Assembly: GCA_033391075.1 (NCBI GenBank)
Contig: JAWPMV010000001.1
Location: 744,001 to 808,000, forward strand
Direction of reading: 5' to 3'
Origin: Bacteroidia bacterium
Lineage (GTDB): Bacteria; Bacteroidota; Bacteroidia; J057
Length of the DNA: 64,000 nt
Positions within the stretch are counted from its first letter, which is position 1. Each line of letters begins with the position of its first letter. Under the pieces are notes generated by a model that ran no database searches, was not told where the DNA came from, and saw nothing but the letters and a program-made list of their open reading frames with translations. The position numbers and the translations under genes were made by a program. Below, piece by piece: positions 11,229 to 37,130 of the stretch.

Positions 11229-14042
11229 ATGAAAACTCCTGGAATAATTTTGATATTTCTGTTCGCCCTTCCCCTAGGGGCTTATTCTCAGGCGCTTCCT
11301 AATCTTGCTGAATTAAGATTGGGAGATAGTTTTGAGGTCGAAGTATTGATTGAAAATAAAAAGGAGCAACTGGGGAAGGGTATAGATATTTTATATACCC
11401 GAACTGAAAAAGAGATTTTCTATTATTTCTTGATGCTTGAAAAGGTCGAGGCTGGTAGTTATCATTTCAGTAGTCAAATCAGAAGATTTCGATCCCGATA
11501 TGATCTGGTATACACCTCAGAGCGGGACAAAAAAAGGGACGAACACAGAAGTTTTGATTCAGATTTTGATATACCGGGATACCCAGATCGAAAAGAGCTC
11601 GATTTTTTAAATCAGTCTTTCACGCTAATCGTTACTCCAGAGAAATTTACCCACCGAATAGTCTTTAAGGAAGAAAATAGAGCTGGGAGAAGCTATGTTT
11701 CCACTGTACTCAATCCCATGGGAATCCCTAATCATGTAAATGCCTTATTCTTTGTCAACAGCCAACCGGTCAACGATGGAAATATTTCAGCTAGAATCAT
11801 TCCTCCAAAGACTTTCCGGAAAGTTTACCTCTCAGGGCAGATTTCACAGCCCCTAAGTCAGAAGCTTCATTTTTCCGCTAATCAGGGCTTTGGAGCGCCG
11901 GCTAAACTTTCAGCTTTTGATAAAGAAGTTATGCTGAATGATGAGGGAAAATTTACCGTAGAATACGAGATCAATGAGGCGAGATTTATATACCTGTTTC
12001 ATTTTGATCAGGAGAATAAAGGCTTTGGGAATGATAAACAAGTTTCCTTTCCAATATATATAGAGCCTGGGGATGAAGTAGAACTTTTCCTGAATACTGT
12101 TCAACCGGATAGTCTGTCCTTTAAGGGGCAAAATTCAGCCAAGTACAGGAGCTTTCACCAATTCGCAATGGCATTTTTGGGTACAAATGCGGATTCCTGG
12201 CAAAGAATTGTTCCGTTTACCTCTCCGAATTACCGCTTCGATAATATGGGAAGGATAAAAAGCTCTCCCATAGACCTGAATTATGAAACCAGGCGCTACA
12301 ATGAAATCCTGAGATATCTTGAGGGAGAAAAATCGGCAATGGGAGAATCTTTGTACCAAAGATTAAAAGCAGAAACGGTGTTTTCTTTCGCCAGAAAAAA
12401 ATTGGCTTCAAAAAACGGCTCTCTACCGGGATTAGAGCTTGATGATCTAAATATCGAAGGCTTAAGTCTTTCGGGAGAAAGGGATCATCACCTCGATAAG
12501 TTTGGGCTTGATTTGGCATCTGTGATCAGCTCTCAATCTTATTCAGATTTCTTGAAAGATCATTTATACGCCAATATGCAATTGTTGCATAGCAAAGACA
12601 TTGTCCAACTTCCAGGAAGGATGCAGTCCTATCACTTTGTACGCTTTGCCTATCGGGACTTCGCTTTGCTTAGTTTAATGAAAAAGATCATTCTGGATGA
12701 CCTAAAGGTCTATGAAAACTCCCTGGGCTTTTCCTTAAATTCTACCCATACCAATAAGCCTGAACTGGCCTTGATTATACAGGATTTTTTATCCATTTGT
12801 AATTATCAACCCTATGTGGATGAGGTGAAAAATGAACTAGGCCGAATTGAAGGATTGCAAAAAGGCAATGAAGCTCCAGATATGCATCTTGACAAGGATA
12901 AAAGGCTTTCAGATTATTTGGGAGAAAAAATCATCTTGATATTATTCCGGAAAATGGAGGATCCTGCGATTCAGGAATTTAAAGCTTTACAAAAGCAATA
13001 TCCAGAATTGAAGTTCATCTTTGTAAATACCAATCCTTTTAAGAAGAAGTTTGAAGACGAAAGGAAGGACAAGGCTTTTCCGACTGAGCTTTATCATTCC
13101 CCTGGCTATGGTTATAGTGAGGAAAGGCCCTACCTATACTCGGGATTTAGGAATTTTGTGCACTATATGATTGATCAAGATGGGAAACTCTGGGGATCTG
13201 CCTCTTCTATTGTCAATTTTGATGTATTTGAACATGAAATAGGTGCTTTAGACCTTTATCAGCCCAATGGCTTAATTCAATTCTACGAAAGACGAAAAAA
13301 GACTCTTATCCAGGCATTCTGGTGGATATCTGGAATTTTCAACTTATACCTGATCTATTTTTTGTTTTACCTTAGGCCCAAACGAAAAAGAGAGATCATG
13401 CATAGAGAACGGATCGAAACGGAACTAAGAGCCATTCGATCTCAGATGAATCCCCATTTTCTTTTCAATTCACTCAGCTCTGTCCAAAACCTCATCAATC
13501 AGGCAGATCCCGAACGTGCCAATTATTATTTGAGTCGTTTTTCTCAATTGGTTCGGAAAGTACTCAATCATTCTGAGCAGGCCATGGTTCCTTTGGCAGA
13601 TGAATTGAAAGTGGTGGATCTCTATTGCGAACTGGAAGCCCTACGGTTCAAGTTTGAATACCAAATTGAGACCGATCCCTCGATAGATGTCCAATTGACA
13701 GAAGTGCCGAGTATGTTGATCCAGCCTTATGTGGAAAATGCGGTGCGCCATGGAATCGCGATGCAGGGAGGATCCGGAATGATCCGCATTCTTGTGAAAG
13801 AGGAAGCTGGATTTATACGAGTTGAAATTGAGGACAATGGAATGGGTATACGCAAGCATATGCAGGAAGTGGCTGGAAAAAAAGAGAAATCTGGTTTTGG
13901 TTTACGTTTGTCGGAGGAAAGGATTGAAAAGATCAATGAGCGATATAAATTGAATATCGTAGTAGCCATCTATGACCGGAGAGATGATGCTGAGGTCAGT
14001 CATGGAACCCGAGTTGTTATAAAAATCCCTCAAGAAGTATGA
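11229..14042 (+). CDS. LytS-type sensor histidine kinase with extracytoplasmic TlpA/DUF4369-like sensor region
   Basis: A 937-residue protein from the ATG at 11229; a GTG start at 11166 would add 21 residues ahead of the signal peptide and is unlikely. A signal peptide ends at about residue 21 (GAYSQ). Residues about 200-320 resemble the DUF4369-type beta domain found before TlpA thioredoxins, and about 547-670 resemble a thioredoxin fold (APDMHLD...LGEKIILILF) but with no CxxC. A membrane span follows near 692-714. The cytoplasmic part has the His_kinase H-box MNPHFLFNS (His near 741), an N-box YVENAVRHGI and a G-box EDNGMGI. It overlaps the response regulator gene by 4 bases. Confidence 0.88.
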   Translation: MKTPGIILIFLFALPLGAYSQALPNLAELRLGDSFEVEVLIENKKEQLGKGIDILYTRTEKEIFYYFLMLEKVEAGSYHFSSQIRRFRSRYDLVYTSERDKKRDEHRSFDSDFDIPGYPDRKELDFLNQSFTLIVTPEKFTHRIVFKEENRAGRSYVSTVLNPMGIPNHVNALFFVNSQPVNDGNISARIIPPKTFRKVYLSGQISQPLSQKLHFSANQGFGAPAKLSAFDKEVMLNDEGKFTVEYEINEARFIYLFHFDQENKGFGNDKQVSFPIYIEPGDEVELFLNTVQPDSLSFKGQNSAKYRSFHQFAMAFLGTNADSWQRIVPFTSPNYRFDNMGRIKSSPIDLNYETRRYNEILRYLEGEKSAMGESLYQRLKAETVFSFARKKLASKNGSLPGLELDDLNIEGLSLSGERDHHLDKFGLDLASVISSQSYSDFLKDHLYANMQLLHSKDIVQLPGRMQSYHFVRFAYRDFALLSLMKKIILDDLKVYENSLGFSLNSTHTNKPELALIIQDFLSICNYQPYVDEVKNELGRIEGLQKGNEAPDMHLDKDKRLSDYLGEKIILILFRKMEDPAIQEFKALQKQYPELKFIFVNTNPFKKKFEDERKDKAFPTELYHSPGYGYSEERPYLYSGFRNFVHYMIDQDGKLWGSASSIVNFDVFEHEIGALDLYQPNGLIQFYERRKKTLIQAFWWISGIFNLYLIYFLFYLRPKRKREIMHRERIETELRAIRSQMNPHFLFNSLSSVQNLINQADPERANYYLSRFSQLVRKVLNHSEQAMVPLADELKVVDLYCELEALRFKFEYQIETDPSIDVQLTEVPSMLIQPYVENAVRHGIAMQGGSGMIRILVKEEAGFIRVEIEDNGMGIRKHMQEVAGKKEKSGFGLRLSEERIEKINERYKLNIVVAIYDRRDDAEVSHGTRVVIKIPQEV

Positions 14043-14785
14043 GTGCGAGCATTCGATCCATTTTAATAGATGATGAGGCTGGAAATCGTGCCAATCTACG
14101 CAGCCTGCTTGAATCTTACTGCCCTCAGGTGGAGGTCATCGGAGAAGCTGATTCTGCCATTGCTGCCATGGATCTCATTCATCAGCTCAAACCTCAACTC
14201 ATATTTCTGGATATAGAAATGCCCAATGGCAATGGTTTCGATCTCCTCAATAAACTGGATCGCATCGATTTTGAAGTCATATTTGTTACTGCATTTGACC
14301 AATATGCCCTCAAAGCCATCAAATTCTGTGCATTGGATTATATCCTGAAGCCCATCGATATCCTCGACCTGAAAGCAGCCGTTCAAAAGGCGGAAACTCG
14401 CCTCCTTGAGCATGAACATTCAGAAGCCTGGCAGGTTTTTCAGGAAAACCAGAAAAGCCAAAGTAATCCCAAGATTGCCTTACCTACAGGCAATCAGGTA
14501 GACTATGTTCCCATAGCCGAAATCATTCGATGCAGAGGAGAAGGGAATTACACCCATTTCTATATAAAAAATGGGAAGAACCTCATGGTTTCCAAAACCC
14601 TCAAAGAATTTGAGGATCTACTCAAAGAGCATCGCTTTCTCCGTGTCCATCAATCTCACCTGATCAATGTCCGATATGTGAAAAGCTATATCAAAAGTGA
14701 AGGAGGCTTTTTGAAAATGGAAGATCAATCGGAGATTCCGATATCGAGGCAGAGGAAGGAGTATGTCTTAGGGAAGCTGAAATGA
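14039..14785 (+). CDS. LytTR family response regulator
   Basis: A 248-residue protein with an N-terminal receiver domain (about 1-125): acidic pair in LIDDEAG, phospho-acceptor aspartate in IFLDIEMP near residue 59, and conserved KP in DYILKPID. The C-terminal LytTR DNA-binding domain (about 145-248) has the typical IRCRGEGNYTHFY and FLRVHQSHLINVRYVKSY segments. It starts at the ATGA overlap with the histidine kinase gene, so the two are a cognate pair made from one mRNA. Targets are unknown. Confidence 0.95.
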   Translation: MSASIRSILIDDEAGNRANLRSLLESYCPQVEVIGEADSAIAAMDLIHQLKPQLIFLDIEMPNGNGFDLLNKLDRIDFEVIFVTAFDQYALKAIKFCALDYILKPIDILDLKAAVQKAETRLLEHEHSEAWQVFQENQKSQSNPKIALPTGNQVDYVPIAEIIRCRGEGNYTHFYIKNGKNLMVSKTLKEFEDLLKEHRFLRVHQSHLINVRYVKSYIKSEGGFLKMEDQSEIPISRQRKEYVLGKLK

Positions 14786-23853: not shown

Positions 23854-24553
23854 ATGTCTGCGAGTAAAACTATCCTAACTACTATTGCTGTACTCTGCCT
23901 GTTTTTTTTGTTGGGGGTAGGGCAAGATTCCAAAGCAGCTAAAGATAGCAGGTCTTCAAAATCTCCCAATGTGATCCTGGTACTGACGGATGATCAGGGT
24001 ATAGGAGATTTATCTGCTCATGGTAATCCCTGGTTGAAAAATTGGGAGATCACAAACCTGGGGACCTTTACGTGGAGGAAAATATAGCCTCTTTGAAGCC
24101 GGTACCCGCGTCCCATTTATCAGCTATTGGAAAGGCAAAATTGAAGCGGGCATCTTTGATGCCATGATTTCTCAATTGGATTTGTTCTTTTCGATTGCTG
24201 CTTTAGTGGGTAGTGAAAAAAGAACAGATGATAGCCAGGAATTATTGAAGGTATTGATGGGGGAAAGTAAAGAAGGCAGGGAAGAATTAATCCTGGAAGC
24301 CACTAGACGTACGGCTTACCGAAAAGGAAACTGGGCCTACATTCCCCCTTATGCCGGTCCTGCCATAAATAAATTTGTGAACATAGAACTGGGTAACTCC
24401 CAGGAGGAGCAGTTGTACGATCTTTCCCAGGATATCGGCCAGCAGAACAATCTCGCGAAAAGTCATCCCGAGAAATTGCAGGAGATGAAAGCCGGATTTG
24501 AAAAAATCAGAGGTAAAGGTTTTGGCGAAACCGAGCAATTGGAGTTGAAGTAA
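23854..24553 (+). pseudogene. Sulfatase with its core deleted and frame shifted
   Basis: The 5' part encodes a signal sequence and the sulfatase N-terminus SPNVILVLTDDQGIGDL with metal-binding aspartates, as far as HGNPWLK. The 3' part, in another frame from about 24062, encodes the family's C-terminal part: GPLRGGKYSLFEAGTRVPF, RKGNWAYIPPY and QLYDLSQDIGQQNN. Everything between, roughly 300 residues including the CxPxR formylglycine site, is missing, and the two halves are out of frame. The join is near 24040-24062. The product cannot be an active sulfatase. It lies next to a P450 module and agar-sugar genes, so the parent probably acted on a sulfated algal galactan (inference). Confidence 0.9.
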
Positions 24554-24573
24554 GTATTGTCCGACATACGTAT

Positions 24574-25818
24574 TTAGGATAAAAGCAGGCCTTGTTTGAG
24601 AGATAAATCCGTATCCCTGATTTTATCCTTATCAAGCAATGCTTTCTCCTTAATATACTTTCTTCCCATCATATAAGCTTTGGGAGAATTGACGGCATCT
24701 ACCGCTAACAATTGATCGCCTTTGAAATACCATAGGGAAAATTGATGCTCGCCTTCTTTTCGCATGATGGCTTCATCATAGCCATTGAGAAGGCCCGCGG
24801 TTTGAAATTTTAACTCATACTGATCAGACCAAAACCAGGGAACTTCTTCATAGGGGCTAGGATTGCCGCAGATTGTCTGAGCTGCGGTCCGTGCCTGAGC
24901 AACGGCATTGGGCACGGACTCAATTCTCACATAGCTTTGGTAGATGGGATTAAAGTGGAAACTGTTGTCTCCGATCGCATAGATATCAGGAACCGAAGTC
25001 TCCATGTATTCATTCACCTTGATTCCATGCTCAATCTCAATTCCTGCTTCTCTTGCCAATTCAGTATGAACCCTTATTCCTGTCCCAAGAATAATGAAAT
25101 CTGCTTCGTAATTGCTTCCGTCGGTGCAGGAGATGATGTTTTTTCCTGATTGGGATTCTATATGGGAAACCCCTTTGGAACAAAAGATTTCTACCCCTTT
25201 TTCTGTATGGTAATTCTCATAGAAGGCAGAAATTTCCGGGGAACTCACACGAGCCAGGAGCCTTTGCTCTCTTTCCAGCAAAACGACCTCCAGTCCCATT
25301 TTTCGTAAAGATGCCGCAACTTCCAGCCCGATAAAACCCCCTCCGATGATGAGCACTTTAGGAGAAACTGCGGATTGAACCCTATTTCTGATATGCTTTA
25401 CATCAGCCGCCGATCGAAGCACAAAGCAATTATTCGCCTCCGACAGTCCAGAGATTGGAGGTACCATAGCTGCTGCGCCTGTCGCCAATACCAATTTGTC
25501 GTAGCGGTATGTTTCTCCCTCCTCACAATGAACCTCTTTTTGGTCCGTATCAATTTTTATGATTTTTTTCCCAAGCTTCAAGTCGATTTGGCTTTTTGAG
25601 TAGCTATCTTTGGGCTTGAGAAAGTTGAGCTGCAATTCCTCCTCTACCAAACAGGATTTGGATAAAGGTGGACGATGATAGGGCAATTCCTTTGCTGCTT
25701 CAAAGAGCAGAATCTCACCTTCCCATCCTTCCCTTCTTAACTGAAACGCACAATTTACTCCTGCATGGCTAGCACCGATAATTATGCAAGAGGAATCTTT
25801 GGATAGATTTTCCGACAT
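24574..25818 (-). CDS. FAD-dependent ferredoxin reductase (rhodocoxin/putidaredoxin reductase type)
   Basis: A 414-residue flavoprotein with an N-terminal FAD-binding motif (IIIGASHAGVNCAFQL), a central NAD-binding motif (VLIIGGGFIGLEVAASL, about 156-172) and a YAIGDN segment before the C-terminal domain. This is the class that passes electrons from NADH to a [2Fe-2S] ferredoxin serving a cytochrome P450. It lies 13 bases downstream of the P450 gene on the same strand, so it is almost certainly its partner. The ferredoxin itself is not in this window. Confidence 0.9.
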   Translation of the reverse strand: MSENLSKDSSCIIIGASHAGVNCAFQLRREGWEGEILLFEAAKELPYHRPPLSKSCLVEEELQLNFLKPKDSYSKSQIDLKLGKKIIKIDTDQKEVHCEEGETYRYDKLVLATGAAAMVPPISGLSEANNCFVLRSAADVKHIRNRVQSAVSPKVLIIGGGFIGLEVAASLRKMGLEVVLLEREQRLLARVSSPEISAFYENYHTEKGVEIFCSKGVSHIESQSGKNIISCTDGSNYEADFIILGTGIRVHTELAREAGIEIEHGIKVNEYMETSVPDIYAIGDNSFHFNPIYQSYVRIESVPNAVAQARTAAQTICGNPSPYEEVPWFWSDQYELKFQTAGLLNGYDEAIMRKEGEHQFSLWYFKGDQLLAVDAVNSPKAYMMGRKYIKEKALLDKDKIRDTDLSLKQGLLLS

Positions 25819-25831
25819 GGCTTTTATTTAG

Positions 25832-26989
25832 CTAGTTCTGATGAAATCTGACTTTCAATGCATGAAAGCCTACTTTTCGCTCAAATTCCCCCCACTCTTC
25901 AATATTATCTGTATGATCGAGGATCTCAATCGAAGAAAGCCTTTCCACCAAAACATCCAACAAAGCTAGTAAAATCTGTCTGGTATGTGTAGCTCCCAGG
26001 CATCTGTGATGACTGTATCCGAAAGCTAAATGTGGATTTTTCTTCCTGTCCAAAATCACTTCATTCGGATTTTCAAAAATGCTTTCATCCCGATTAGCAG
26101 AGGCCCAGCATAAAGAAATTCTACTATCATACTTTATGGCGTGCTCACATACTTCCGTTTCTTCTGTTACCACCCTGCCCATATGCGTCAGGGGAGCAAA
26201 ATATCGAACCAATTCTTCTACTGCACGTCTTTTGATCTCAGGTTCTTCCTTTATTCTTGTTAAAGCTTCCGGATGCTCAGCAAAATAGGCAATGGTATTC
26301 GTAATGGCATTGATTACGGTATCCCGACCGCCTGCGAAGGTGAGGATCATGACTCCTTTGATCTCTTCTTTGGTCAATTTTCTGCCTTGAAATTCTGCAG
26401 CAAGGAGGAGGGAATATATATCATCCGTGGGATTTTCCTCTGCTTTGGCAACGGCCTCATCCAGGTAGTCATAAAGAAGATTGGCTTTTGATCCATCCAG
26501 CGGATCATCTTCACTCCTAAACACATGGGTTCCCCAGGATATCCAATGTTCGGCTTCTTCATAGGGACAATTCAATAAAAGGGTCAAAGCCCGTGATTGT
26601 ATGGGGAGAGAAAAATCGTATATAATCTCCACCGAATCCTTCCCCTTCAGTTCGTCGAAACTTTGTCTAATGATTTCCCTGAGCCTTTTTTGATAATCTT
26701 CCTGTACGGGTCTTCGAAACCACTGTTCCACCAGGGCCCGATATTCTTTATGAAGCGGAGGATCAACCTCAAAAGGAATCTGTCGTGTATCCCGGATATA
26801 CACCTCTGAAGGGACGACTATTCTGCCGGGTTTGGCAGCTGACTTAAAGGTTTGCCAATTCATCGCGCATTTCCGTACATCCTCATGCCTGAGGATCATG
26901 TTTACCGGATCGTTTTGGTCATCCATTTCCCCAATGCCTTTTTCCTGACGGGCTTGTTTAAAGGGATCTGGGAATTCACTCTTTTTCAT
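25832..26989 (-). CDS. Cytochrome P450
   Basis: A 385-residue soluble bacterial P450. The heme-ligand Cys is at residue 330 in FGYSHHRCLG, the I-helix oxygen-activation motif AGGRDT at 219-224 and ExxR at 259-262 (ELVR). It is followed at 13 bases by its ferredoxin reductase and preceded by a zinc alcohol dehydrogenase. In marine Bacteroidota, P450 genes placed in agar/porphyran loci demethylate 6-O-methyl-D-galactose, releasing galactose and formaldehyde; the neighbouring anhydrogalactose genes make that the leading inference. Another substrate cannot be excluded from sequence. Confidence 0.93.
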   Translation of the reverse strand: MKKSEFPDPFKQARQEKGIGEMDDQNDPVNMILRHEDVRKCAMNWQTFKSAAKPGRIVVPSEVYIRDTRQIPFEVDPPLHKEYRALVEQWFRRPVQEDYQKRLREIIRQSFDELKGKDSVEIIYDFSLPIQSRALTLLLNCPYEEAEHWISWGTHVFRSEDDPLDGSKANLLYDYLDEAVAKAEENPTDDIYSLLLAAEFQGRKLTKEEIKGVMILTFAGGRDTVINAITNTIAYFAEHPEALTRIKEEPEIKRRAVEELVRYFAPLTHMGRVVTEETEVCEHAIKYDSRISLCWASANRDESIFENPNEVILDRKKNPHLAFGYSHHRCLGATHTRQILLALLDVLVERLSSIEILDHTDNIEEWGEFERKVGFHALKVRFHQN

Positions 26990-27115
26990 CTGGGTATTTT
27001 TTATCGATTTCGATCTTTAGGAATGGGGGAGCAGTTGAGATCAAAAAAGCTGAGACTTTCCCATTCAAAAGGAGCATGGGATAGTTCTATGGTACGAAAG
27101 CAGCTCATCGCCTTT

Positions 27116-28243
27116 TTAATCAAAAACGACTACACCTTTAGCATTTTTCCCTTGCAGCAGATCTTCAAATCCCTGTGCCAGTTCCTCCAATTTATATTCT
27201 CTGCTGATCATTTCGTCGAGTTTCAAATCTCCTTTTTTATACAAGTTCATCAGTTTGGGGAAATCAATCTGTGGACGGCATTTTCCATATAAGGGATTGA
27301 TATAAATTTTGTCCCATTCAAAAAGATTCATATCAATGGTCAGGTCTTCTTCTATCCCACTTACCTGAACAGCCGTCCCCGCATTTCTTATCATCTTCAG
27401 CGGAGCTGCTCCCAGTGCAGGAATGGCAGTACACTCAAAAGAATAATCTGCCCCTCTTCCTCCAAACATAGCTTTCACCTGATTGGCGACCTGATCTAAA
27501 CCTGCATCTTCTTTATCAGCCAGGATTAACTCCGTGGCACCAAATTGCTTTGCCAGTTCCAGTTTATTGGGATTTATATCGACAGCGACGATAGAAGAAG
27601 CTCCCGAAATTTCAGCTGCCTGTATAACATTTAATCCTACTCCACCGCAACCCAAAACCACTACCGAACTACCCGCACTTACTTTAGCCGAATTCACCAC
27701 AGAACCATATCCTGTCATTACCCCACAACTCACAATGCTTGCTGCAGAAAAATTCAATTTATCTTGCTCAATTTTTACTACTGCAGAAGATTTCACTAAA
27801 GCATATTCACTAAGGGTACCCAGGTTGAAAGATCTTTCAATTGCTTCCCCTTTCCACTTTGATCCTTCGAGATGTGCATGTCCGGGCGTAAATCCATTTC
27901 CTCCTGCCACAACCGGAGAATTGTTTTCGCAGATATGTTGATTGCCTTCCTGACATTGAAAACAAGTCATGCAGGGAGTTGCCCAATTCAGAATGACTTT
28001 ATCTCCTTTGCTTAAGCCTCTGACATTAGCCCCGACTTCTGCTATCACTCCGGCTCCTTCATGTCCCATGATGATGGGTTTTCCCCAGGAAAGAGAATCA
28101 TAATCGGTATGGCAGAGTCCGGCGGCTTTCATTTTAACGAGCACTTCATCCTCAGCTGGAGGAGCCAGAATAATGGTGTCAATCAAAAAATCACCGGAGC
28201 CTGTTGCAATGGCACTTTTGGCGGAAACATTCATGGATATCAA
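27116..28243 (-). CDS. Zinc-dependent alcohol dehydrogenase (MDR family)
   Basis: A 375-residue medium-chain dehydrogenase. Seen are the catalytic zinc ligands Cys in GLCHTDYD and His in GHEGAGVI, the structural zinc quartet in CMTCFQCQEGNQHIC, and the Rossmann motif GCGGVGLNV. It resembles the class III/benzyl alcohol type. It heads the ADH-P450-reductase group (126 bases before the P450). Related ADHs accompany P450 demethylases in marine Bacteroidota and may handle the formaldehyde produced; this role is inferred. The start may be Met4 (28234). Confidence 0.88.
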   Translation of the reverse strand: MISMNVSAKSAIATGSGDFLIDTIILAPPAEDEVLVKMKAAGLCHTDYDSLSWGKPIIMGHEGAGVIAEVGANVRGLSKGDKVILNWATPCMTCFQCQEGNQHICENNSPVVAGGNGFTPGHAHLEGSKWKGEAIERSFNLGTLSEYALVKSSAVVKIEQDKLNFSAASIVSCGVMTGYGSVVNSAKVSAGSSVVVLGCGGVGLNVIQAAEISGASSIVAVDINPNKLELAKQFGATELILADKEDAGLDQVANQVKAMFGGRGADYSFECTAIPALGAAPLKMIRNAGTAVQVSGIEEDLTIDMNLFEWDKIYINPLYGKCRPQIDFPKLMNLYKKGDLKLDEMISREYKLEELAQGFEDLLQGKNAKGVVVFD

Positions 28244-28379
28244 TTATTGAGTAGTACAGCTTTCCTTCAAAGAAATTTAAAATTCGAAAGAATTTCTTCT
28301 AGGATTTAACCCAATTAGTTCAATATTTTAACATAGTTTCAGGATTTATCTCTTATTTGTATGTTAAATTATTGACTAA

Positions 28380-29222
28380 GTGAAAGCTGTATTCGAAAAA
28401 GTGCCCGAAGATCCGGCTAGCGAGATAACTGCCTTTTTACATGATGAAGTAGATTTTGGGGCTCCCTGGCATTTTCATCCCGAATGTGAACTTACCTATA
28501 TACTGGAAGGCGAAGGATTGAGATATGTTGGGAATCACATTGCTCCTTTTGCCGCAGGGGAATTGGTTTTGCTGAGAGGTAATTTGCCGCATTGTTGGAA
28601 GAATATACAGAAAGCAGGAAGGTCTAAATCTTTGGTCATACAGTGGGAAGAAAGCCTTATTCCTTCGATCATTGATCTCCACAAGATTATGAAATGTCTG
28701 GATCAAGCCTCACAGGGCTTGATTTTCTCTCCTTCCATCACCGAGTCTGCATTAGTCCATATAAAAGCCTTGATCCTGGAGGGAGATAATCATTTTATCA
28801 AACTTCTTGAGATTCTTCATCTCTTGTCGAAAGATGAAGAGGCAAAGCAATTGAGCAGGGTAGATTATGGAAAGAAAATGTCTCTGGAATCCCAGGACAG
28901 AATGGGCTTGATTTTTAACTTTATTTCGGAAAATTTTGGGCGAAAAATCAGCTTGAAAGAAATCACCCATTTATGCCACTTGAGTGAACCCTCATTTTCT
29001 CGATTCTTTAGCAGCAATTTTCAGAAGCCCTTTTCCTCCTATCTGAATGAATACCGAATCAGTCAGGCGAGCCGAATGCTGATCGAATCTCATGATCCTA
29101 TTGCACAAATTGCCTTTAGTTGCGGATACGAAAGTTTATCCCTTTTCTATACCCAATTTCGCAAATACAAAGCTCTTTCTCCCCGAAAGTATCGAAAAGC
29201 CTATAAGTTGGATTTCTCTTAA
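28380..29222 (+). CDS. AraC family transcriptional regulator
   Basis: A 280-residue regulator starting at GTG (28380); no later ATG retains the N-terminal domain. The N-terminus is a cupin-like sugar-binding fold (WHFHPECELTYILEGEG and LVLLRGNLPHCW). The C-terminal 100 residues hold two helix-turn-helix units ending SLFYTQFRKYKALSPRKYR, standard for AraC. It lies between the P450 module (divergent) and the anhydrogalactose operon (convergent), so it probably senses an agar-derived sugar and controls both (inference). Confidence 0.92.
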   Translation: MKAVFEKVPEDPASEITAFLHDEVDFGAPWHFHPECELTYILEGEGLRYVGNHIAPFAAGELVLLRGNLPHCWKNIQKAGRSKSLVIQWEESLIPSIIDLHKIMKCLDQASQGLIFSPSITESALVHIKALILEGDNHFIKLLEILHLLSKDEEAKQLSRVDYGKKMSLESQDRMGLIFNFISENFGRKISLKEITHLCHLSEPSFSRFFSSNFQKPFSSYLNEYRISQASRMLIESHDPIAQIAFSCGYESLSLFYTQFRKYKALSPRKYRKAYKLDFS

Positions 29223-29242
29223 GTTACGTTCTATGCTTCCTT

Positions 29243-30337
29243 TTACTTTTCCAGATAAGGATTCAGCTTTTCCCAATTGAACTCAACACCTGTTCCAGGA
29301 ATATCAGGCGCGACAGCTCTACAATTTTCCACTACTAAGGGTCTATGGGTATATTCATCAATAGGGAAACTGTGAACTTCCAGCCAGCCAGCATTTGATT
29401 GAGCAGATACCAGGCTTACATGAAGTTCCTGCATGCCATGAGAGCAAACGGGTATATTGTATTTCCGAGAAAGCTCCGCAGCTTGAAGCCAGCCTGTAAT
29501 TCCACCACAGTTAGAGGCATCGGGCTGGATAAAAGAAAGTTTGGCTTCTTCGAAGGCATATCCAAACTCATGAATGGTATGTAGATTCTCTCCCATAGCC
29601 AAAGGCATTCCTGTTGCATCGACTATTTGAGCAAAACCCTTATAATCGTCCGGGATAGTAGGCTCCTCAAACCAGTAGATATTATATGGCCTGAATGCTT
29701 TTGCAGCTTCAATGGCCTCTGCTACTGACATAGAGTAGTTGGCATCAACCATAAAAGTAATTTCTGGCCCAATCAATTCCCGAACAGCAGCAATGCGTTC
29801 AATATCTTCCTCTAACTTATCTCTTCCTATTTTAATCTTGACCGCATTAAAGCCTTTATCCAAATAGGCCTGAATATTGGAAAGCAGCTTTTCCAGGGGA
29901 AAGAGTAGATCTATTCCCCCACAATAGGCTTTGCAACTATTATCGCTTCCACCTGCCATTTTCCAAAGGGGAAGGCCTTCGTGTTTAGCTCGTATATCCC
30001 AGAGTGCTATATCTATGGTCGAAGTAGCAAAAGACAGAATTCCCCCACGACCCACATAGTGCATATGCCATTCCAGGGCCTCATAGATTTCTTCTACTTT
30101 TGAGCCGTCTTTTCCTATCAAAAAAGGCGCAATATCATGCTCGATCATGGATTTGATCGCATGGCCTCCTCTTCCTCCCGTATAAGTATAACCTATTCCT
30201 TCGCTCCCATCTTTCAAGGCTATTGTAGTAGTTACCAATTCAAAATGGGTATGTTCTCCATGCTTGGCATCCGTCAATACCTCTGCGAGTGGAACATTAA
30301 ACAATCGACAATCCACCGAAGATATGCGTGTATCCAT
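29243..30337 (-). CDS. Enolase-superfamily sugar-acid enzyme, likely 3,6-anhydro-L-galactonate cycloisomerase
   Basis: A 364-residue mandelate racemase/muconate cycloisomerase subgroup protein. The KxK base is Lys167/Lys169 (VKIKIG), metal ligands are Asp198, Glu224 and Glu250, and the other base is His300 in CSHGMQELH. The segments [32 protein letters not shown] and [14 protein letters not shown] agree with what I recall of 3,6-anhydro-L-galactonate cycloisomerases of agar-degrading bacteria, which convert anhydrogalactonate to 2-keto-3-deoxy-L-galactonate. The flanking dehydrogenases fit that pathway. The family-level call is firm; the substrate rests on recalled similarity and context. Confidence 0.85.
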
Positions 30338-30339
30338 CT

Positions 30340-30729
30340 TTAGCTAAATTTTACGTAAAAGCTTTTCTTCTCCAGGTATTGCTCGAAGCCGTACTTCCCA
30401 TCTTCTCCACCGGTTCCACTCAATTTCAATCCATTATGGAATCCCTGATGTTGTTCTCCATGCCCGCGGTTGATATACACCTCTCCGAATTCCAATTCAT
30501 CCGTAAACTTATAGAGAAATTCAGCCCTTTTACGCAGCGGTAATTTTCGCCAGCTTTTCTGTGAATTTTTTGAAGCTGTCAGGGCTTTCTCAGCTTCTGC
30601 TTTGGTTCCTTCCTGTACTTTGCCAATGATTTCTTCAGTGCTGGGATTAAGAATATCATCCAATTTGCCCGAATCGGAGGCTATCCATTGCCCATTGATG
30701 TATTGCAAATATGTTGGTATGCTCGTCAT
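30340..30729 (-). pseudogene. AldA-like aldehyde dehydrogenase with in-frame deletion of the catalytic core
   Basis: A continuous 129-codon frame joins the first about 77 residues of an aldehyde dehydrogenase ([33 protein letters not shown]) directly to the last about 50 ([38 protein letters not shown]). A complete family member has about 475-480 residues, so about 350 are gone, including the NAD-binding fold, the catalytic cysteine and the glutamate. The join lies near 30490-30500. The tail is of the lactaldehyde/glycolaldehyde dehydrogenase type, the group to which 3,6-anhydro-L-galactose dehydrogenases belong. It sits 2 bases before the cycloisomerase in the operon. Confidence 0.88.
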
Positions 30730-30745
30730 CTTATTTTGGTCTAAA

Positions 30746-31516
30746 TTATCTGCCCATCCAGCCTCCGTCGACTAGTACAATCGAGCCATTCATATAATTG
30801 GAAGCAGCTGAAGCTAAGAATACGGTAGGTCCTTTGAAGTCATCGGGATCTCCCCATCTGCCTGCAGGAATTCTTGCCAGAATGGAATTGGCTCTTTCAG
30901 GATTATTCCTCAAAGCTTCTGTATTATCGGTTGCGATATATCCGGGAGCTATGGCGTTTACATTAATTCCATGCGGTGCCCATTCGTTGGCAAAGGCCAT
31001 AGTCATTTGCCCTATGGCTCCTTTACTCGCAGCATAACCCGGCACAGTAATTCCTCCCTGAAAGGTCAGTAACGAAGCGGTGAAAATGATTTTACCTGAT
31101 TTTCGAGCCACCATGTCTTTCCCAAATTCTCGGGTCAGGATGAATTGTGCACTCTGATTGACCTCTACTACTTTGTCCCAATAGTCATCAGGATGGTCCA
31201 CAGCAGGCATACGAAGAATGGTACCTGCATTATTTACCAAAATATCAATTTCAAAGCCATCAGATTTTACCTTAGTGATAAAGCGATACAGGGCTTCCCG
31301 ATCAGAAAAATCACATTGGTAGGCTTTGAAACTTCGCCCTTTGGCCAGGACTTCTTTTTCTACAGCACTGCCTGAAGGTTCCAGAGATGCAGAGACTCCA
31401 ACAATATCTGCTCCTGCCTCTGCCAGACCTATGGCCATAGCTTTTCCTATCCCTCTTTTACAGCCAGTGACCAAAGCTGTCTTTCCATCTAGTTTGAATT
31501 GGTTTAAAATGCTCAT
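30746..31516 (-). CDS. KduD-like short-chain dehydrogenase
   Basis: A 256-residue classical SDR: cofactor motif TGCKRGIG (17-24), NNAG (95-98), catalytic Ser148, Tyr161 and Lys165 (YAASK). The C-terminal half closely follows KduD (2-dehydro-3-deoxy-D-gluconate 5-dehydrogenase), as in [20 protein letters not shown] and the terminal VDGGW. In the anhydro-L-galactose route it would reduce the 2,5-diketo-3-deoxy acid to 2-keto-3-deoxy-D-gluconate (inference). It lies 1 base after the MDR gene and 16 bases before the truncated aldehyde dehydrogenase. Confidence 0.9.
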
Positions 31517-31517
31517 G

Positions 31518-32540
31518 TTATTTGGGGCTTACTTCGATTAAATATTTCATGCCCGCCGGGTTTCTGTCGATTTCTTCAAAAACGGATTGAATATCTGTAA
31601 GCGGACTTATTTGGGTAATTAATGTATCAAATGGGATGGCTCCGGAAGCCGCAATTTGGATAGCTTCTTCATAGTCTTCCTCTTCATACAAACGCGCACC
31701 CAACATCTCAATTTCGGACCAGAAGAATTTGAATAAATCAACTTTCCGTGGGCCTCCTCCATGAATAGCAACCATTACAATTCGGGATCGGACATTGACA
31801 AGCTCTGTCATGCTCGCCACCGCAGCCTCAGAACCCGAAACCTCAAAAGCACAATCTATCATAGCTGCATTTGTCAGTTCGCTGATTCTTTCTACCAGAT
31901 TTTCTTCACCAGGATTAAGGACTGTAAATCCCAACTCTCTCAGCATTTGGATTCGCGTCGCATTTACTTCTGAAATGATGACATTTGCCCCTTTTTCCTG
32001 TAGCACATAGGCAATCAGGGTCCCGATAGGTCCTCCTCCCATCACCAGGCAATTTTCGCCAACTTTAACCCGACCGACCTTTACATCATGGCAAGCAACT
32101 GATAGTGGCTCAATAAAAGCTCCATGTTTTAAGGAAAGTTGCTCGGGAAGTTTGTGCAAGGTGTAAGCAGGCAAGGTCCAGCTTTGTTGAAAAGCACCGG
32201 CACTGTCAATTCCAATAAATTTGAGGTTCTTACCTACATGTTTGTGCCCTTTGTCAAAGGGATGAGGATCTCCAAACCTCAGCGGACGAATAGCTACCCG
32301 GTCTCCTACCTTGACATTTTCGACTCCTTCCCCAATTTCCGCAACCACGGCAGAAGCTTCATGTCCTACGATTTGTGGAGGACCAATTCTTTGATCCATG
32401 ACTCCATGAAATATGTGCACATCTGTCCCACATACCCCACAATAGGCAACTTCCAATCTTACTTCTCCCGCTGCGGGTTTTTTGATTGTACTTTCGCCTA
32501 GCTCAAACTTTCCTTTAGAAGAATAAAAGGCTGCTTGCAT
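31518..32540 (-). CDS. Zinc-type MDR dehydrogenase, probable 2-keto-3-deoxy-L-galactonate 5-dehydrogenase
   Basis: A 340-residue medium-chain dehydrogenase of the threonine/sorbitol dehydrogenase type. The catalytic zinc site is visible (CGVCGTDVHIFHG and GHEAS) and the Rossmann motif is GGGPIGTL. The loop that normally carries four structural-zinc cysteines (here between IRPLRFGDPH and GKNLKF) has none. In the anhydro-L-galactose route an oxidation at C5 of 2-keto-3-deoxy-L-galactonate is followed by SDR reduction; this protein fits the first step (inference from context). It is in a tight operon with the SDR (1 base apart). Confidence 0.85.
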   Translation of the reverse strand: MQAAFYSSKGKFELGESTIKKPAAGEVRLEVAYCGVCGTDVHIFHGVMDQRIGPPQIVGHEASAVVAEIGEGVENVKVGDRVAIRPLRFGDPHPFDKGHKHVGKNLKFIGIDSAGAFQQSWTLPAYTLHKLPEQLSLKHGAFIEPLSVACHDVKVGRVKVGENCLVMGGGPIGTLIAYVLQEKGANVIISEVNATRIQMLRELGFTVLNPGEENLVERISELTNAAMIDCAFEVSGSEAAVASMTELVNVRSRIVMVAIHGGGPRKVDLFKFFWSEIEMLGARLYEEEDYEEAIQIAASGAIPFDTLITQISPLTDIQSVFEEIDRNPAGMKYLIEVSPK

Positions 32541-32575
32541 ATGATATATCGATTAATGCTTATAAAGTTTCTTTC

Positions 32576-33073
32576 TTAAGACTCGGATTTCGATGCCTCC
32601 CCTTTAGCCACATGGGTAGTCACCCTATGGCAGTGAAAGCGGCGGATATACTGATAATCATCTGTCATATACTGCTGAGTTATTCCCAAGGCAAGATTGG
32701 CGATGGGATTATCTCCTCCTTCCAAGCTACGATTTAATCCGATAGCGTGAGGGGCTTCTTTTATCACGGATTGAATTTCAAAGTTGATTCCATCCGCGGC
32801 CCATTGGAGGGTGTTTTTTTCTGGTCCATCCGTAGTAATCAGAGAAACCACTCCTCCCTTGTAGTACAAGTAAAACCTCACATTATGAAACAGAATCGAG
32901 GGGTGGTGTCTATTGGGATTATCGCAATCTCCTTTCAAGTCAAATACCTCAAGCTCATAAAACCATTCATTCCCATTCCTCGGCCAGGCCAATGCTCTTT
33001 TTGATACGGCACTAAGAAAGTTTGCATGGGTTATCCCCAATCTATCTAAATCTTGATCTGTGAAGGAATTCAT
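32576..33073 (-). pseudogene. Likely GH117-type alpha-neoagarobiosidase remnant with internal deletion
   Basis: A 165-residue frame. The first half (KRALAWPRNGNEWFYE, NPNRHHPSILFHN, FYLYYKGG) resembles the first blade of GH117 five-bladed propellers; the second half (GPEKNTLQWAADGINFEI, EAPHAIGLNRS, ITQQYMTDDYQYIRRFHC) resembles their last blade. GH117 enzymes have about 350-400 residues, so the middle would be missing, with a join near 32850-32860. The usual catalytic RDPS motif reads RHHPS here. It is first in the anhydrogalactose operon, which suits an enzyme releasing 3,6-anhydro-L-galactose. The family call is from recalled patterns and needs a profile search; it could be an unrelated small protein. 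Confidence 0.5.
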
Positions 33074-33339
33074 AGGAGTTGTTTCGAATTTGAGATCGGA
33101 CTAAGACATTGCTAAGATTAGGCTTTTTGAATTAAGATGATATTTATTCCACTCAATAATAACTGAACAATCTGGATTTATTCACTTGAACAAAAATCGA
33201 TCATTGAATTTTGTTGATTTTAACTTTTATGTCAAGTTTAATTGTTTGGCTTCCTCCCATTTTTTCACTTTCCCTTAGCACAATTCACCTCTGGGAAACT
33301 AAGTCTAGCACTTATTATACTTGCTAAAGCCATATCATT
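33074..33339. other. Divergent intergenic region of the agar-sugar operon and GH50 remnant
   Basis: 266 A/T-rich bases between divergently read genes. It should hold promoters and a regulator-binding site for both directions, but no clear TAnnTTTG pair or strong palindrome was recognised. Confidence 0.4.
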
Positions 33340-34071
33340 ATGAAATCTACGCTGCGTGTAATTTTAGGTCTGTCTTCTTTCACACGCTTCTTATTCTTTT
33401 CATGTGAATCCTCACAGGATATGAACTTGGGTACCAGGTGGACCAAGGATCCCATATGGGATAAGCAAAAACAGGAACTTCTCCTGGATTTTGAAGGAGA
33501 GGCTATGCCCGAAATTCTGGAAAATTCCCGTAGCACTTCTGAATTAGTAGAAAGAAAGGGAGTAAATCAGGGAAGGAAGGCCTTAATAGCCACTTTTCAA
33601 GGAGATGAGAACGCTCCTTTTGTGCTTGTTAAGCCGGAGAGTCCTATAGATGCAAGTGGGTTTGACAATTTTAGTCTGGTATTCGATCTTACCAATATCA
33701 CCCCCGAAAAATCTGCGCAATTGTATATAAGGCTTGCTATTGAGCAGGGGCATAATATTAGAAGAGCGGCGGTCATCCCTCAAGGACAGACCAAACCCAT
33801 GTTCTTCAAACTATCATGGAAATATGTGAACATGGAAACGGCTTTGCGCGATGACCCTCAGCCCTGAAATTCCTCCTCTGTGCAGATGAAAATCCAGGGC
33901 CTCAAGAATCCCATTGATTTTTCAAAAATAGCCTCCCTCAACTTTCATATGGAGCATATTTTAGTAAATCGGGAAATCATAATTGATCATGTGCGTCTGG
34001 TAGAAAGTATTCCCTTTGATGATGAGTACCTGCTAGGAATTATTGATCAGTATGGACAGCATGCTAAAAAG
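33340..34071 (+). pseudogene. GH50-like beta-agarase, N-terminal domain only, with in-frame stop
   Basis: A lipoprotein signal (FLFFSC lipobox) leads into the beta-sandwich domain that precedes the barrel of GH50 agarases: LLLDFEGEAMP, ASGFDNFSLVFDLTN, then after a TGA (33865-33867), in the same frame, IQGLKNPIDFSKIASL, IIIDHVRLVES and LLGIIDQYGQHAKKE. The stop stands where relatives have a tryptophan (DPPSW-like), so TGG to TGA is plausible. Homology ends near 34071, inside the 3' end of the opposite lipoprotein gene; the catalytic barrel is absent. It is thus doubly broken. Confidence 0.75.
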
Positions 34072-34585
34072 GAGCCAATAGGGCCCGTGCAAAATCCAAT
34101 AAGGAGTTTTCATCCAAACAATTATTGGCGGTATTGAAGGTAGCTCCATTTACTTCCAGGTATAAGGAATACTGACCTTTAATTGCATACATGATAACCA
34201 TATCCAGGAATCCGTTTTCCATGTGTATGTTGGCGAAAGCTTCATCCCCGATATCATTGTATTCAACAAAGTCCGGGTCTGGGCGAGCCATGTCCAACTC
34301 ACGATCGTATTCCTCTTTAGCATTATCAACACTAAAGTTGTTATAGATGCGGATCGAAATGCGGTCATCGAAGGTATAGCTGCTATTCTGGTCTGCATTG
34401 CAGATGTCAAAGAGCAGGTTATTGAAATCAAAATGACTGGTAGTCAAGCCACAAAAATCTGAAAAGGCAACTTCGGCCCAGTAATCAGCGCAATTGAGGC
34501 TATCGTCGGGACTTCCTATGGGAGATTCTTCACAGGAAGTGAACAGGATCAAAAGGGAGGTCAAAAGATAAAGATGATGTTTCAT
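34064..34585 (-). CDS. Lipoprotein of unknown function
   Basis: A 173-residue protein with a lipoprotein signal peptide (LLILFTSC lipobox, Cys at about residue 18), so it is probably membrane-anchored outside the cytoplasm. The mature part is acidic, with four further cysteines in the first 60 residues and near residue 155 that could form disulfides. I do not recognise the family. Its last codons overlap the truncated GH50-like gene on the other strand, so a deletion here may also have changed its C-terminus. Confidence 0.75.
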   Translation of the reverse strand: MKHHLYLLTSLLILFTSCEESPIGSPDDSLNCADYWAEVAFSDFCGLTTSHFDFNNLLFDICNADQNSSYTFDDRISIRIYNNFSVDNAKEEYDRELDMARPDPDFVEYNDIGDEAFANIHMENGFLDMVIMYAIKGQYSLYLEVNGATFNTANNCLDENSLLDFARALLAPF

Positions 34586-34693
34586 GACATATGATTTTGA
34601 TCAGTGTATCATCAATCTATCTTTATAAGGTACATCTCGCCGAACTTTGTCAGGGAATGGCTGTTTTTTGTCAGGGAAATATCTCTGAAGGCC

Positions 34694-36154
34694 TTATTTC
34701 CCCAATATCTCCTCACTCACACGAACTCCTGTAGTAATGGCTCCATTCATGGTAGCAGTAAGGGTATGCTCCCCGGCAAAATGAACCACGCCCTCTTTCC
34801 TGGCTGCATAGGCCTGGAAATTCCTCGCCTGACCAACTCCCATAAAAGAATAACTCGCCTTCACCCAGGGATCCTCATTCCAGTATTTGATGGCAGCTCC
34901 TTCCCAGTATTTTCCCGCTCCGGGCCAGGCTTTTTCTACTTCCGCTAAAGCTGTTTTTTGTCGATCTGATTTGGACAAACTACCCAGCTTTTTCGCATCA
35001 TCACCAGAGGTAAAGGACATCAGTATTCCTCTTGGACCGGCTTGATCAATAGACATATCGTAAACTCTTCTCAAAGCTGTATCCGTAAATACCCTTTGCC
35101 CAATACTTCCTTCCCTATTCCAAAAACGTTCTTTGAATTGCATGGCAACTTTCATCACCTGTCCGTAAGCCAACTCACGAATACATTTCATTTTTTCCTC
35201 TGAAAACAAAGGCTCAATTTCCAACTCCCGCAAAATAGAGAAGGGGAGAGCTATGACCAGTTTATTTGCTTTGAGGGATTGCAGTTGACCGTTTTCTTCA
35301 AACCAGACTTCGGCTCCTTCTTTTGAGTGAGAGATTTTTCTGACGGGCCGCCGATACATGATTTTTCCCGCTAGGGCTTTGGCGAAAGCTTTGGGCAGTT
35401 GGTCATTTCCTCCAAATATTCTCCCTTCATCTACTTCTTCATTAAAAAGACTTGCACTCGCATGTTGTTTGAGCAGGCTGAGGGCAGACATTTGATCCGT
35501 TCGGGCGGTTTCTTCAGTAGCATTCAGGTAGGTGAAAAGGTCGATGATATCTTGAGGTGTTCCTTGCTGGATCAGCATTTCCGTAATAGACAGATTATCG
35601 AACTTCAATATTTCAGGTGGAAGCTTTGCAGGGTCTTTTATTTTGTCCAAAAGGGCGGAAAGGTATTTCTTTTCCTGTCCAAACAAAGCACCGCCTACAG
35701 CTCCTTCATAGGGTAAACGCTCTTTGTTTTTCTGAAAGCTATCCATGCGGAAACGGCGATTTCTCACAAAAATCCCATCATACAACTTGGCCGTCATGAT
35801 CTTTAGCCCAAAATCTTTACAATATTTTCTGGCAAAAGCATCATGACCATCTACATATTCAGCCCCCATTTCTGCATACAATCCATCTGCAAAAGGATCG
35901 CGATAGGTTCTCACTCGACCTCCGGGCCGGGACCGTGCTTCCAAAACCCTGACATCATATCCTTCCTTATCCAATTCATAAGCTGCTGCCAATCCTGCCA
36001 AACCCGCTCCCAAAACCAGAACGGTTTTCTCACTTCTTTCTTCAAGTGATGTGAAACTGTTTTGAGGGAAGGCTGAGGCTGCTCCTGCGTATAAAATTCC
36101 AGAACTGGCAGTTTTGATAAACTCGCGTCGAGGGAGAGAAAATTTTGATGACAT
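34694..36154 (-). CDS. Flavin monoamine oxidase family protein, Tat-exported
   Basis: The start at 36154 (MSSKFSLPRREF) gives 486 residues beginning with a twin-arginine signal; the frame runs 29 codons further upstream without a better start. After the signal come the FAD motif VLGAGLAGLAAAYEL, the GGRVRTYRDP arginine segment and the C-terminal FAGEHTLTATMNGAITTGVR flavin-binding motif of amine oxidases. It would oxidise an amine or amino acid outside the cytoplasm with FAD; the substrate is not known. It is divergent from an AraC regulator 145 bases away that may control it. Confidence 0.9.
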   Translation of the reverse strand: MSSKFSLPRREFIKTASSGILYAGAASAFPQNSFTSLEERSEKTVLVLGAGLAGLAAAYELDKEGYDVRVLEARSRPGGRVRTYRDPFADGLYAEMGAEYVDGHDAFARKYCKDFGLKIMTAKLYDGIFVRNRRFRMDSFQKNKERLPYEGAVGGALFGQEKKYLSALLDKIKDPAKLPPEILKFDNLSITEMLIQQGTPQDIIDLFTYLNATEETARTDQMSALSLLKQHASASLFNEEVDEGRIFGGNDQLPKAFAKALAGKIMYRRPVRKISHSKEGAEVWFEENGQLQSLKANKLVIALPFSILRELEIEPLFSEEKMKCIRELAYGQVMKVAMQFKERFWNREGSIGQRVFTDTALRRVYDMSIDQAGPRGILMSFTSGDDAKKLGSLSKSDRQKTALAEVEKAWPGAGKYWEGAAIKYWNEDPWVKASYSFMGVGQARNFQAYAARKEGVVHFAGEHTLTATMNGAITTGVRVSEEILGK

Positions 36155-36299
36155 ATGGATAGATGCTGTAGTAGTAGGAAATGTTTTCTTGAAAAGGAAG
36201 ATAGACAAATTATGGAGAAGGCCTGTGGCTATGTGAATCAATTTGGGATTAGGTGCTTATGCTTTTTTTGAGTAAAATCATCAGAAAGATGTTTGCCGG

Positions 36300-37130
36300 A
36301 TGAAATTTGTAAGTCCCCTCCAGGAAGAAATTTTGATTGCTCAGGTTACTCCTGCAGAAACCTTCTGTTTTGAGCAGGAGCTGGAAGGGAGTATGACGGT
36401 CCTTTGGAACACCGGCCCGGATGCACGATTTATCCTCGACAATAAACCGATCGAAATCGAAAAGGATTGCATCAGTTTCTTTACCGAATTCCACAAAGTC
36501 AGGAACATAGAATTTAGCCAACTTAATATCATTCAGTTCAATCGGGCCTTCTATTGTGTAGAGTCCCAGGACCATGAAACCGGCTGCAGAGGCATTCTCT
36601 TTTACAGTCCCGCCACAGTTCCCAAATTGATCATACCGGAAGAAAGGAGAAAGCAATTTTATGCCCTTTGGGATACCATGCTATTTGAAATGGAGGAGCA
36701 GGATGAACTAAAGCTGGATATGCTTCAAAATTTACTCAAGCGCTTTCTCATTCTTTCTTTAAGGGTCTATCGGGCGCAAAGTCACGACTTGCCTGCTGAT
36801 GATTCCAGCCTTTCTATTGTTCGGGAATTCAATTACCTGGCCTCTATCCATTTTCGGCAATTGAGTCAGGTGAAAGACTATGCGGAAATGCTAAATAAAT
36901 CTCCTAAAACCCTTTCCAATATCTTCAAGAAGTTCACAGATAAGACTCCCCTTCAGATCATCAATGAATTTCGGTTGCGGGAAGCCAAGCATTTGCTTCG
37001 CTATACCGACAAACATATACAGGAAATCTCCGATGAACTCAATTTCAAGGATATCCAGGCCTTTAGCAATTTCTTCAAAAAGAGAGAAAATCAGGCTCCC
37101 ACACTCTATCGTGCCAGCCTTACTCACTAA
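36300..37130 (+). CDS. AraC family transcriptional regulator
   Basis: A 276-residue protein with an N-terminal cupin-like domain and a C-terminal AraC helix-turn-helix pair (about 175-276): LSQVKDYAEMLNKSPKTLS and the second unit ending AFSNFFKKRENQAP. The RREAP-type signature is IQEISDELNFKDIQAF. It is a cytoplasmic regulator, divergent from the Tat-exported amine oxidase, which is its most likely target (inference). Confidence 0.92.
   Translation: MKFVSPLQEEILIAQVTPAETFCFEQELEGSMTVLWNTGPDARFILDNKPIEIEKDCISFFTEFHKVRNIEFSQLNIIQFNRAFYCVESQDHETGCRGILFYSPATVPKLIIPEERRKQFYALWDTMLFEMEEQDELKLDMLQNLLKRFLILSLRVYRAQSHDLPADDSSLSIVREFNYLASIHFRQLSQVKDYAEMLNKSPKTLSNIFKKFTDKTPLQIINEFRLREAKHLLRYTDKHIQEISDELNFKDIQAFSNFFKKRENQAPTLYRASLTH

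Follow-up and report, generated by a model that had tools for sequence, protein, structure and literature searches.

The window analysed here is a 64,000-nucleotide stretch (bases 744001-808000 of the 8.16-Mb contig C1) from the 9.49-Mb, five-contig genome of a Bacteroidia bacterium; its region from 23.8 to 34.1 kb looks like an agar/porphyran (red-algal galactan) utilisation cluster in a marine bacterium. Damaged genes for a sulfatase, a ferredoxin, an AldA-like dehydrogenase, a GH117 and a GH50 enzyme are interspersed there with intact genes. The cluster is considered to be in partial decay through relaxed selection combined with deletion between short direct repeats, a reading to which a probability of about 0.82 is given, and the pattern resembles ordinary gene decay in progress more than an error of assembly. 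An earlier reading made from the letters of the DNA alone (hereafter the sequence-only reading) had claimed that several catabolic genes here keep both ends and lose their catalytic cores; these clustered losses are real, with about 280 codons gone from the sulfatase, about 354 from AldA and about 207 from GH117 when compared to intact homologues. The locus offers a view of a catabolic cluster midway between working order and loss, in which adjacent genes are either constrained or hollowed out.

Core deletions in the catabolic genes

The damaged genes and their junctions are listed below.

23854..24553, + strand: sulfatase remnant; an N-terminal piece read in frame 1 is followed, after an out-of-frame join, by a C-terminal piece in frame 2 (translations, orthologue alignment)
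24033..24040, + strand: sulfatase junction, GTTGAAAA; can be read as the left gene (..WLK) in one phase and as the right gene (VEKIG) in another (orthologue alignment)
30340..30729, - strand: AldA-like remnant (3,6-anhydro-L-galactose dehydrogenase type); 129 aa, one in-frame deletion
30496..30501, - strand: AldA junction, GATGAA (Asp-Glu); LADEI-type left and NDELE-type right motifs overlap; a weak case, with a run of at least 6 bp in 12 of 66 homologues
32576..33073, - strand: GH117 remnant; 165 aa in three surviving pieces, with two in-frame deletions
32927..32936, - strand: GH117 junction 1, GAAAGGAGAT (Lys-Gly-Asp), an LKGD...KKGD repeat; identical 10-bp repeat at both places in the intact L078 gene
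32854..32860, - strand: GH117 junction 2, AAGGGAG (YYKG...KGG); run of at least 6 bp in 14 of 67 homologues
33340..34095, + strand: GH50 agarase remnant; a CBM-like 5' part survives, interrupted by TGA (33865-33867); Pfam PF17992 positions 1-121 of 178

An undamaged counterpart is seen in genome G003 (locus L027), which belongs to the same family as the window genome; its collinear operon has the same order with all genes at full length (cycloisomerase, AldA of 485 aa, SDR, zinc dehydrogenase and GH117 of 371 aa), and a full-length GH50 of 743 aa adjoins it. For broader comparison the best 80 of the 571 related loci found were used, with identity thresholds of 50, 45 and 55% for AldA, GH117 and SDR matches, respectively; in 45 of the 80, zinc dehydrogenase, SDR, AldA and cycloisomerase follow one another on the same strand as listed, and GH117 lies upstream of the ordered set in 28. 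The order GH117, zinc dehydrogenase, SDR, AldA, cycloisomerase is that of the L-anhydrogalactose operon of agar-degrading bacteria; unlike in that operon, GH117 and AldA of the window are reduced to remnants.

The first ~76 residues of AldA are fused in frame to the last ~53, with 353-354 codons gone compared to intact homologues such as the G003 enzyme, and Pfam PF00171 matches the remnant only over positions 1-65 and 410-460 of 461. The deleted part (about residues 81-433) contains the GQVC stretch, which begins at residue 285 in the G003 enzyme and the Cys of which is presumably the catalytic residue. There are 67 AldA matches in the 80 related loci, 66 of them full length and one (L128) cut by a contig end, while 13 loci have no match at threshold; none of the 67 is internally deleted. 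Within the genome itself, 13 aldehyde dehydrogenase matches comprise the two halves of the remnant and 11 other genes in frames of at least 439 aa; for one of these genes, with a frame of 439 aa, the match is confined to 26-299 of 461. The best full-length paralogue has 38% identity to AldA, and a whole-genome DNA search found no second copy of the remnant.

The loss in the sulfatase is measured against orthologous open frames of 519-530 codons, and its C-terminal piece has 47-52% identity to the orthologues in L134, L135, L084, L124 and L139. The 53 sulfatase matches in the genome resolve into 47 single stretches that are nearly full (one of them has a TAA), two genes matched in two stretches, one partial match and this remnant; the two-stretch genes lie inside 634-aa open frames, with 53 and 39 profile positions unmatched between stretches, the partially matched gene has a 582-aa frame, and each of the 50 others is in an open frame of at least 436 aa. 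Core deletion is rare in this genome for the sulfatase and aldehyde dehydrogenase families. The sulfatase remnant matched one other place in a whole-genome DNA search, at 76% over 67 bp.

GH117 had been read as a single 5'-3' join; that join exists near 32855, and a second one at 32927-32936 makes two deletions, which remove about 157 and 50 codons compared to the 371-aa homologue. The G003 homologue matches solved 3,6-anhydro-L-galactosidases, and residues are numbered according to an excerpt of PMC11574756 mapped on solved chains, the numbering being fixed by 4ak7, which has Gln where 4ak5 has Glu303. Deletion 1 takes out Asp90 and Glu167 and deletion 2 takes out His302 and Glu303; the surviving middle piece has His at the position of Asp245. 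The same excerpt reports that any single mutation of these five residues is inactivating (PMC11574756). A phylum survey for internally deleted GH117 (395 genomes, with limited candidates scored per genome) gave 12 places at 60% identity or more, including the genome's own paralogue; all 12 are single stretches of at least 326 residues (one with an internal TAA), and the window copy alone is split in two. The own-genome paralogue (G000:C1:389279-390349; L059, L062, L063) is an intact open frame with 63% identity to the G003 enzyme, around which no cluster genes were recognised by eye among open reading frames (ORFs) of at least 150 aa in 375000-405000; to this paralogue, the only close one, the remnant's strongest DNA match spans 98 bp at 78.6%.

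GH117 has at least 85% coverage in 53 of the 80 related loci, is partial in two (L079, and L077, the copy of which sits at the locus edge) and is absent in 25; this coverage is not proof of an undamaged gene, as the L123 copy is read in two frames and the L130 copy has an internal stop. In L123:4165-5270, from Zobellia uliginosa, the switch between frames comes just after LKG, near the KGD site at which deletion 1 of the window lies, and is an apparent frameshift or sequencing error; the L130 copy (13436-14542) is from an uncultured Algibacter record. L079, from an uncultured Lewinella metagenome-assembled genome, is collinear with L078, with 79% DNA identity over the AldA-cycloisomerase stretch, and holds a second GH117 remnant: relative to L078:14387-15664, two segments are missing from L079:13440-13877, one of 646 bp that breaks the frame and one of 174 bp that preserves it, and stops are present, with the cluster otherwise kept. 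This case came from the 80 related loci and not from the 395-genome survey. About one codon separates the end of its second deletion from that of the window's second deletion; the near-coincidence of these right breakpoints is suggestive of recurrence and was rejected as proof of a hot spot, since there are several breakpoints to compare and a rough estimate makes it suggestive only.

GH50 is also cut, being truncated with a TGA; the claim that both ends are kept fails for this gene, of which only the 5' part is recognisable, through weak homology (23% identity by tblastn) that ends near 34095. Its 3' end or catalytic part was not found in 33001-36300, where only weak matches in other frames occur. 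The search for another GH50 in the genome gave no match and detected its positive controls, G003 and G162; its sensitivity is limited, as the window's GH50 remnant itself went undetected, and a distant GH50 could be missed. For annotation, these remnants carry a warning that short ORFs labelled "GH117" or "aldehyde dehydrogenase" can be core-deleted pseudogenes.

Possible direct repeats at the joins

Microhomology deletion, one of the causes offered by the sequence-only reading, finds its best support at GH117 deletion 1; it is plausible for the sulfatase and for GH117 deletion 2, and the case for AldA is weak. The join of GH117 deletion 1 falls exactly on Lys-Gly-Asp, and L078 shares GAAAGGAGAT at both places. 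Of 67 intact homologues, 24 share a run of 8 bp or longer there and 11 a run of 10 bp or longer; random in-frame pairs equal it in 4.3% of cases on average. Both anchors could be located in 52 genes, and in 13 of these, including the own-genome paralogue, no direct repeat is longer than this one. For the sulfatase, we infer that GTTGAAAA is an 8-bp direct repeat; lying out of phase in the two flanks, such a repeat would explain the frameshift of the remnant.

Direct repeats of at least 8 bp within intact genes are in codon phase in 62% of cases for GH117 (938 repeats) and 63% for AldA (1578 repeats), fractions that come from related and hence not independent genes. As most such repeats are already in phase, the in-frame GH117 and AldA remnants need no special cause; the probability that all three joins are in frame is about 0.24 given in-phase repeats, compared to 0.04 (1/27) if frames were random. 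The bias, at 62-63% in two families, offers a simple explanation for the frequency with which core deletions preserve the reading frame, and lends itself to wide testing.

In the proposed mechanism, selection on the sulfatase, GH50, GH117, the anhydrogalactose dehydrogenase (AldA) and the ferredoxin of the P450 would be relaxed, and RecA-independent deletion between short direct repeats would cut out the gene cores; slippage or annealing at repeats may have made all joins, and purifying selection on retained genes would stop the deletions at gene borders. Redundancy is a plausible source of the relaxed selection, judged by the second GH117, 50 other sulfatases, 11 other aldehyde dehydrogenases and 15 Fer2 matches of the genome. 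In decaying genes of fish-adapted Streptococcus agalactiae, 136 of 193 indels longer than 4 nt lie between repeats with a median of 8 nt (PMC3637634). The window resembles that system (PMC3637634) in having intragenic deletions flanked by short repeats (inferred here at about 6-10 bp) under relaxed selection; unlike in S. agalactiae, the deletions concern a single catabolic cluster within 9.49 Mb of genome, and the homologues are too distant for every ancestral repeat to be read directly. Repeat-mediated deletion being documented (PMC3637634), and purifying selection on neighbours being enough to confine deletions, the earlier description of the pattern as unusual for ordinary decay was too strong. 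The process is known from other bacteria and the window is a clear but ordinary example of it; literature searches on in-frame operon decay and on pseudogenes at agarase loci gave nothing to the point among the titles and abstract openings listed.

Constraint on retained genes and rival explanations

Four retained genes serve for comparison with the remnants.

29243..30337, - strand: 3,6-anhydro-L-galactonate cycloisomerase, intact and constrained; top-scoring solved structure 5xd7 (615.5 bits)
30746..31516, - strand: SDR dehydrogenase, intact and constrained (Pfam)
31518..32540, - strand: zinc dehydrogenase, intact and constrained (Pfam)
25832..26989, - strand: cytochrome P450, intact and constrained; top-scoring solved structure 6g5o (612.8 bits, residues 1-383)

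The cycloisomerase is of the L-specific type, its 615.5 bits to 5xd7 comparing with 153.4 bits to 5olc, the D-specific DauB of the D-specific anhydrogalactose route (PMC5698469, in excerpt). Ten other window genes were scanned with Pfam and nine match most of their main profiles; the exception is the P450, which matches 233-431 of 462 and nonetheless aligns over 1-383 to a solved P450. The neighbours of the damaged genes are intact, as had been claimed. Near-invariant columns were defined as those in which 97% or more of the homologues carry the same residue (at least 57-70% identity, 90% coverage), with own-genome copies excluded and near-duplicates partly kept. Few such sites have changed in the retained genes: 3/167 in the cycloisomerase (83 homologues), 2/132 in SDR (55) and 1/138 in the zinc dehydrogenase (15), and in the P450 3 of 117 columns invariant in 12 homologues, which themselves show 0-6 changes of 117-123. 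The remnants show 3/45 in AldA and 9/47 in GH117 (6/13 in its middle piece). Pooled, this gives 12/92 for the two remnants compared to 9/554 for the four retained genes (Fisher p 3.5e-6); leaving out the GH117 middle piece, the remnants show 6/79 (p 0.006).

This drift bears directly on the possibility that reads common to near-identical paralogues were lost and gene ends falsely joined in assembly. Several genes are hit within 10 kb and the in-frame joins look tidy, which would suit such an artefact; however, a mis-join would leave the pieces undamaged, and the substitutions at near-invariant sites of the remnants therefore speak for real decay. Whole-genome DNA searches show no near-identical copy of the sulfatase, AldA or GH117 remnants onto which reads could have collapsed, as the sequence-only reading had proposed, and the contig is 8.16 Mb of a five-contig genome; an artefact is considered highly improbable. 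The intact copies sought elsewhere in the genome amount to the one GH117 paralogue, with no close AldA, no near-identical sulfatase and, at limited sensitivity, no GH50 match.

Operon polarity would account for the same remnants differently: in-frame GH117 and AldA excisions would be kept because an open frame to the native stop protects downstream translation, while the sulfatase and GH50, outside the operon, may break freely. All three operon deletions are in frame (1/27 if random), the sulfatase is out of frame and GH50 has a stop, 2 bp separate the AldA stop from the beginning of the cycloisomerase gene, and the AldA and GH117 remnants contain no stops where about 2.7 are expected (P 0.067). 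In-phase repeats alone, however, yield three in-frame joins with the probability of 0.24 given above, which weakens selection for open operon frames as an explanation, and the GH117 remnant of L079 is out of frame at its 646-bp deletion and has stops; polarity is regarded as unlikely. It also appears unlikely that gene loss in bacterial operons follows a rule by which codon-phase repeats from conserved motifs (such as KGD...KGD in GH117) predetermine where an enzyme core can be excised in frame, with the short frames then kept by polarity selection, so that the same enzyme would collapse alike in separate lineages. The losses might instead be adaptive, selected to stop attack on the polymer and scavenge small sugars while keeping demethylation and the late anhydrogalactose steps; by family knowledge of their roles, most lost genes act on polymer, oligosaccharide or first oxidation, and the retained genes tested remain constrained. 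Against this, the cycloisomerase is without a local dehydrogenase feeding it and the P450 without a ferredoxin, and relaxed selection accounts for the same pattern; adaptive loss is judged quite unlikely. Active selection against the degradative genes, also suggested in the sequence-only reading, would not be needed, as relaxed selection can explain the data.

Several points also weigh against partial decay by relaxed selection and repeat-mediated deletion. At GH117 deletion 1, the run reaches no more than 5 bp in G003 and in L086 and 6 bp in L137; the existence of this repeat thus depends on codon usage. Random pairs are as good in 15.5% of cases for GH117 deletion 2 and 30.6% for AldA (DEI...DEL), the repeat test being weak for both because the true ancestor is unavailable for comparison. 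The drift of AldA taken alone is borderline (3/45, p 0.054), the lack of stops in the operon remnants hints that open frames may be kept, and no second genome of the window genus was present among the 60 genomes examined. It is likewise odd that the cycloisomerase is still constrained though the local dehydrogenase making its substrate is lost.

The P450 demethylation module and neighbouring features

The remaining features of the region are as follows.

24574..25818, - strand: ferredoxin reductase, intact; Pfam Pyr_redox_2 2-291/291 and Reductase_C 1-83/85
25819..25831, no strand: former ferredoxin site; 13 bp left between the P450 and the reductase
27116..28243, - strand: intact zinc alcohol dehydrogenase belonging to the demethylation module (Pfam); homologues near the P450 set in L138, L028, L134 and L135
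28380..29222, + strand: AraC-type regulator, intact (Pfam)

By its match to 6g5o, which we take to be the Zobellia 6-O-methyl-galactose demethylase, the P450 is likely a 6-O-methyl-D-galactose demethylase. A ferredoxin gene stands beside the P450 in all 12 other loci examined (ten together with L138 and L028; L134 and L135 were left out, as their P450 runs to the locus end) and is gone from the window although the P450 remains constrained. The L028 ferredoxin has a single match in the genome at 35%, among 15 Fer2 matches, and no ferredoxin remnant was seen by eye in six frames of the 126-bp gap between the alcohol dehydrogenase and the P450 (window 26990-27115); this gap holds one short open frame. 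An excerpt of PMC10033563 gives P450, ferredoxin, reductase and alcohol dehydrogenase as the porphyran 6-O-methyl-D-galactose demethylation module; the window is like the module in having P450, reductase and alcohol dehydrogenase and unlike it in being without the ferredoxin gene. The alcohol dehydrogenase lies upstream of the P450 in the window, L134 and L135, and downstream in L138. A homologue of the AraC-type regulator occurs in 9 of the 12 P450 loci, eight as long matches at 31-42% identity and one (L192) as a short match.

In the 80 related loci SDR is full in 55, partial in two (L068 and L121) and absent in 23. The operon SDR gene at L068:7824-8300 is without its 5' part, with only residues 98-256 matching, and the preceding sequence appears repetitive by eye. 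L121:4758-4949 is an in-frame chimera, in which the 5' end of AldA, together with its upstream bases, is joined to the 3' end of SDR; it lies upstream of an intact AldA (6550 on) and is probably the leftover of a duplication plus deletion.

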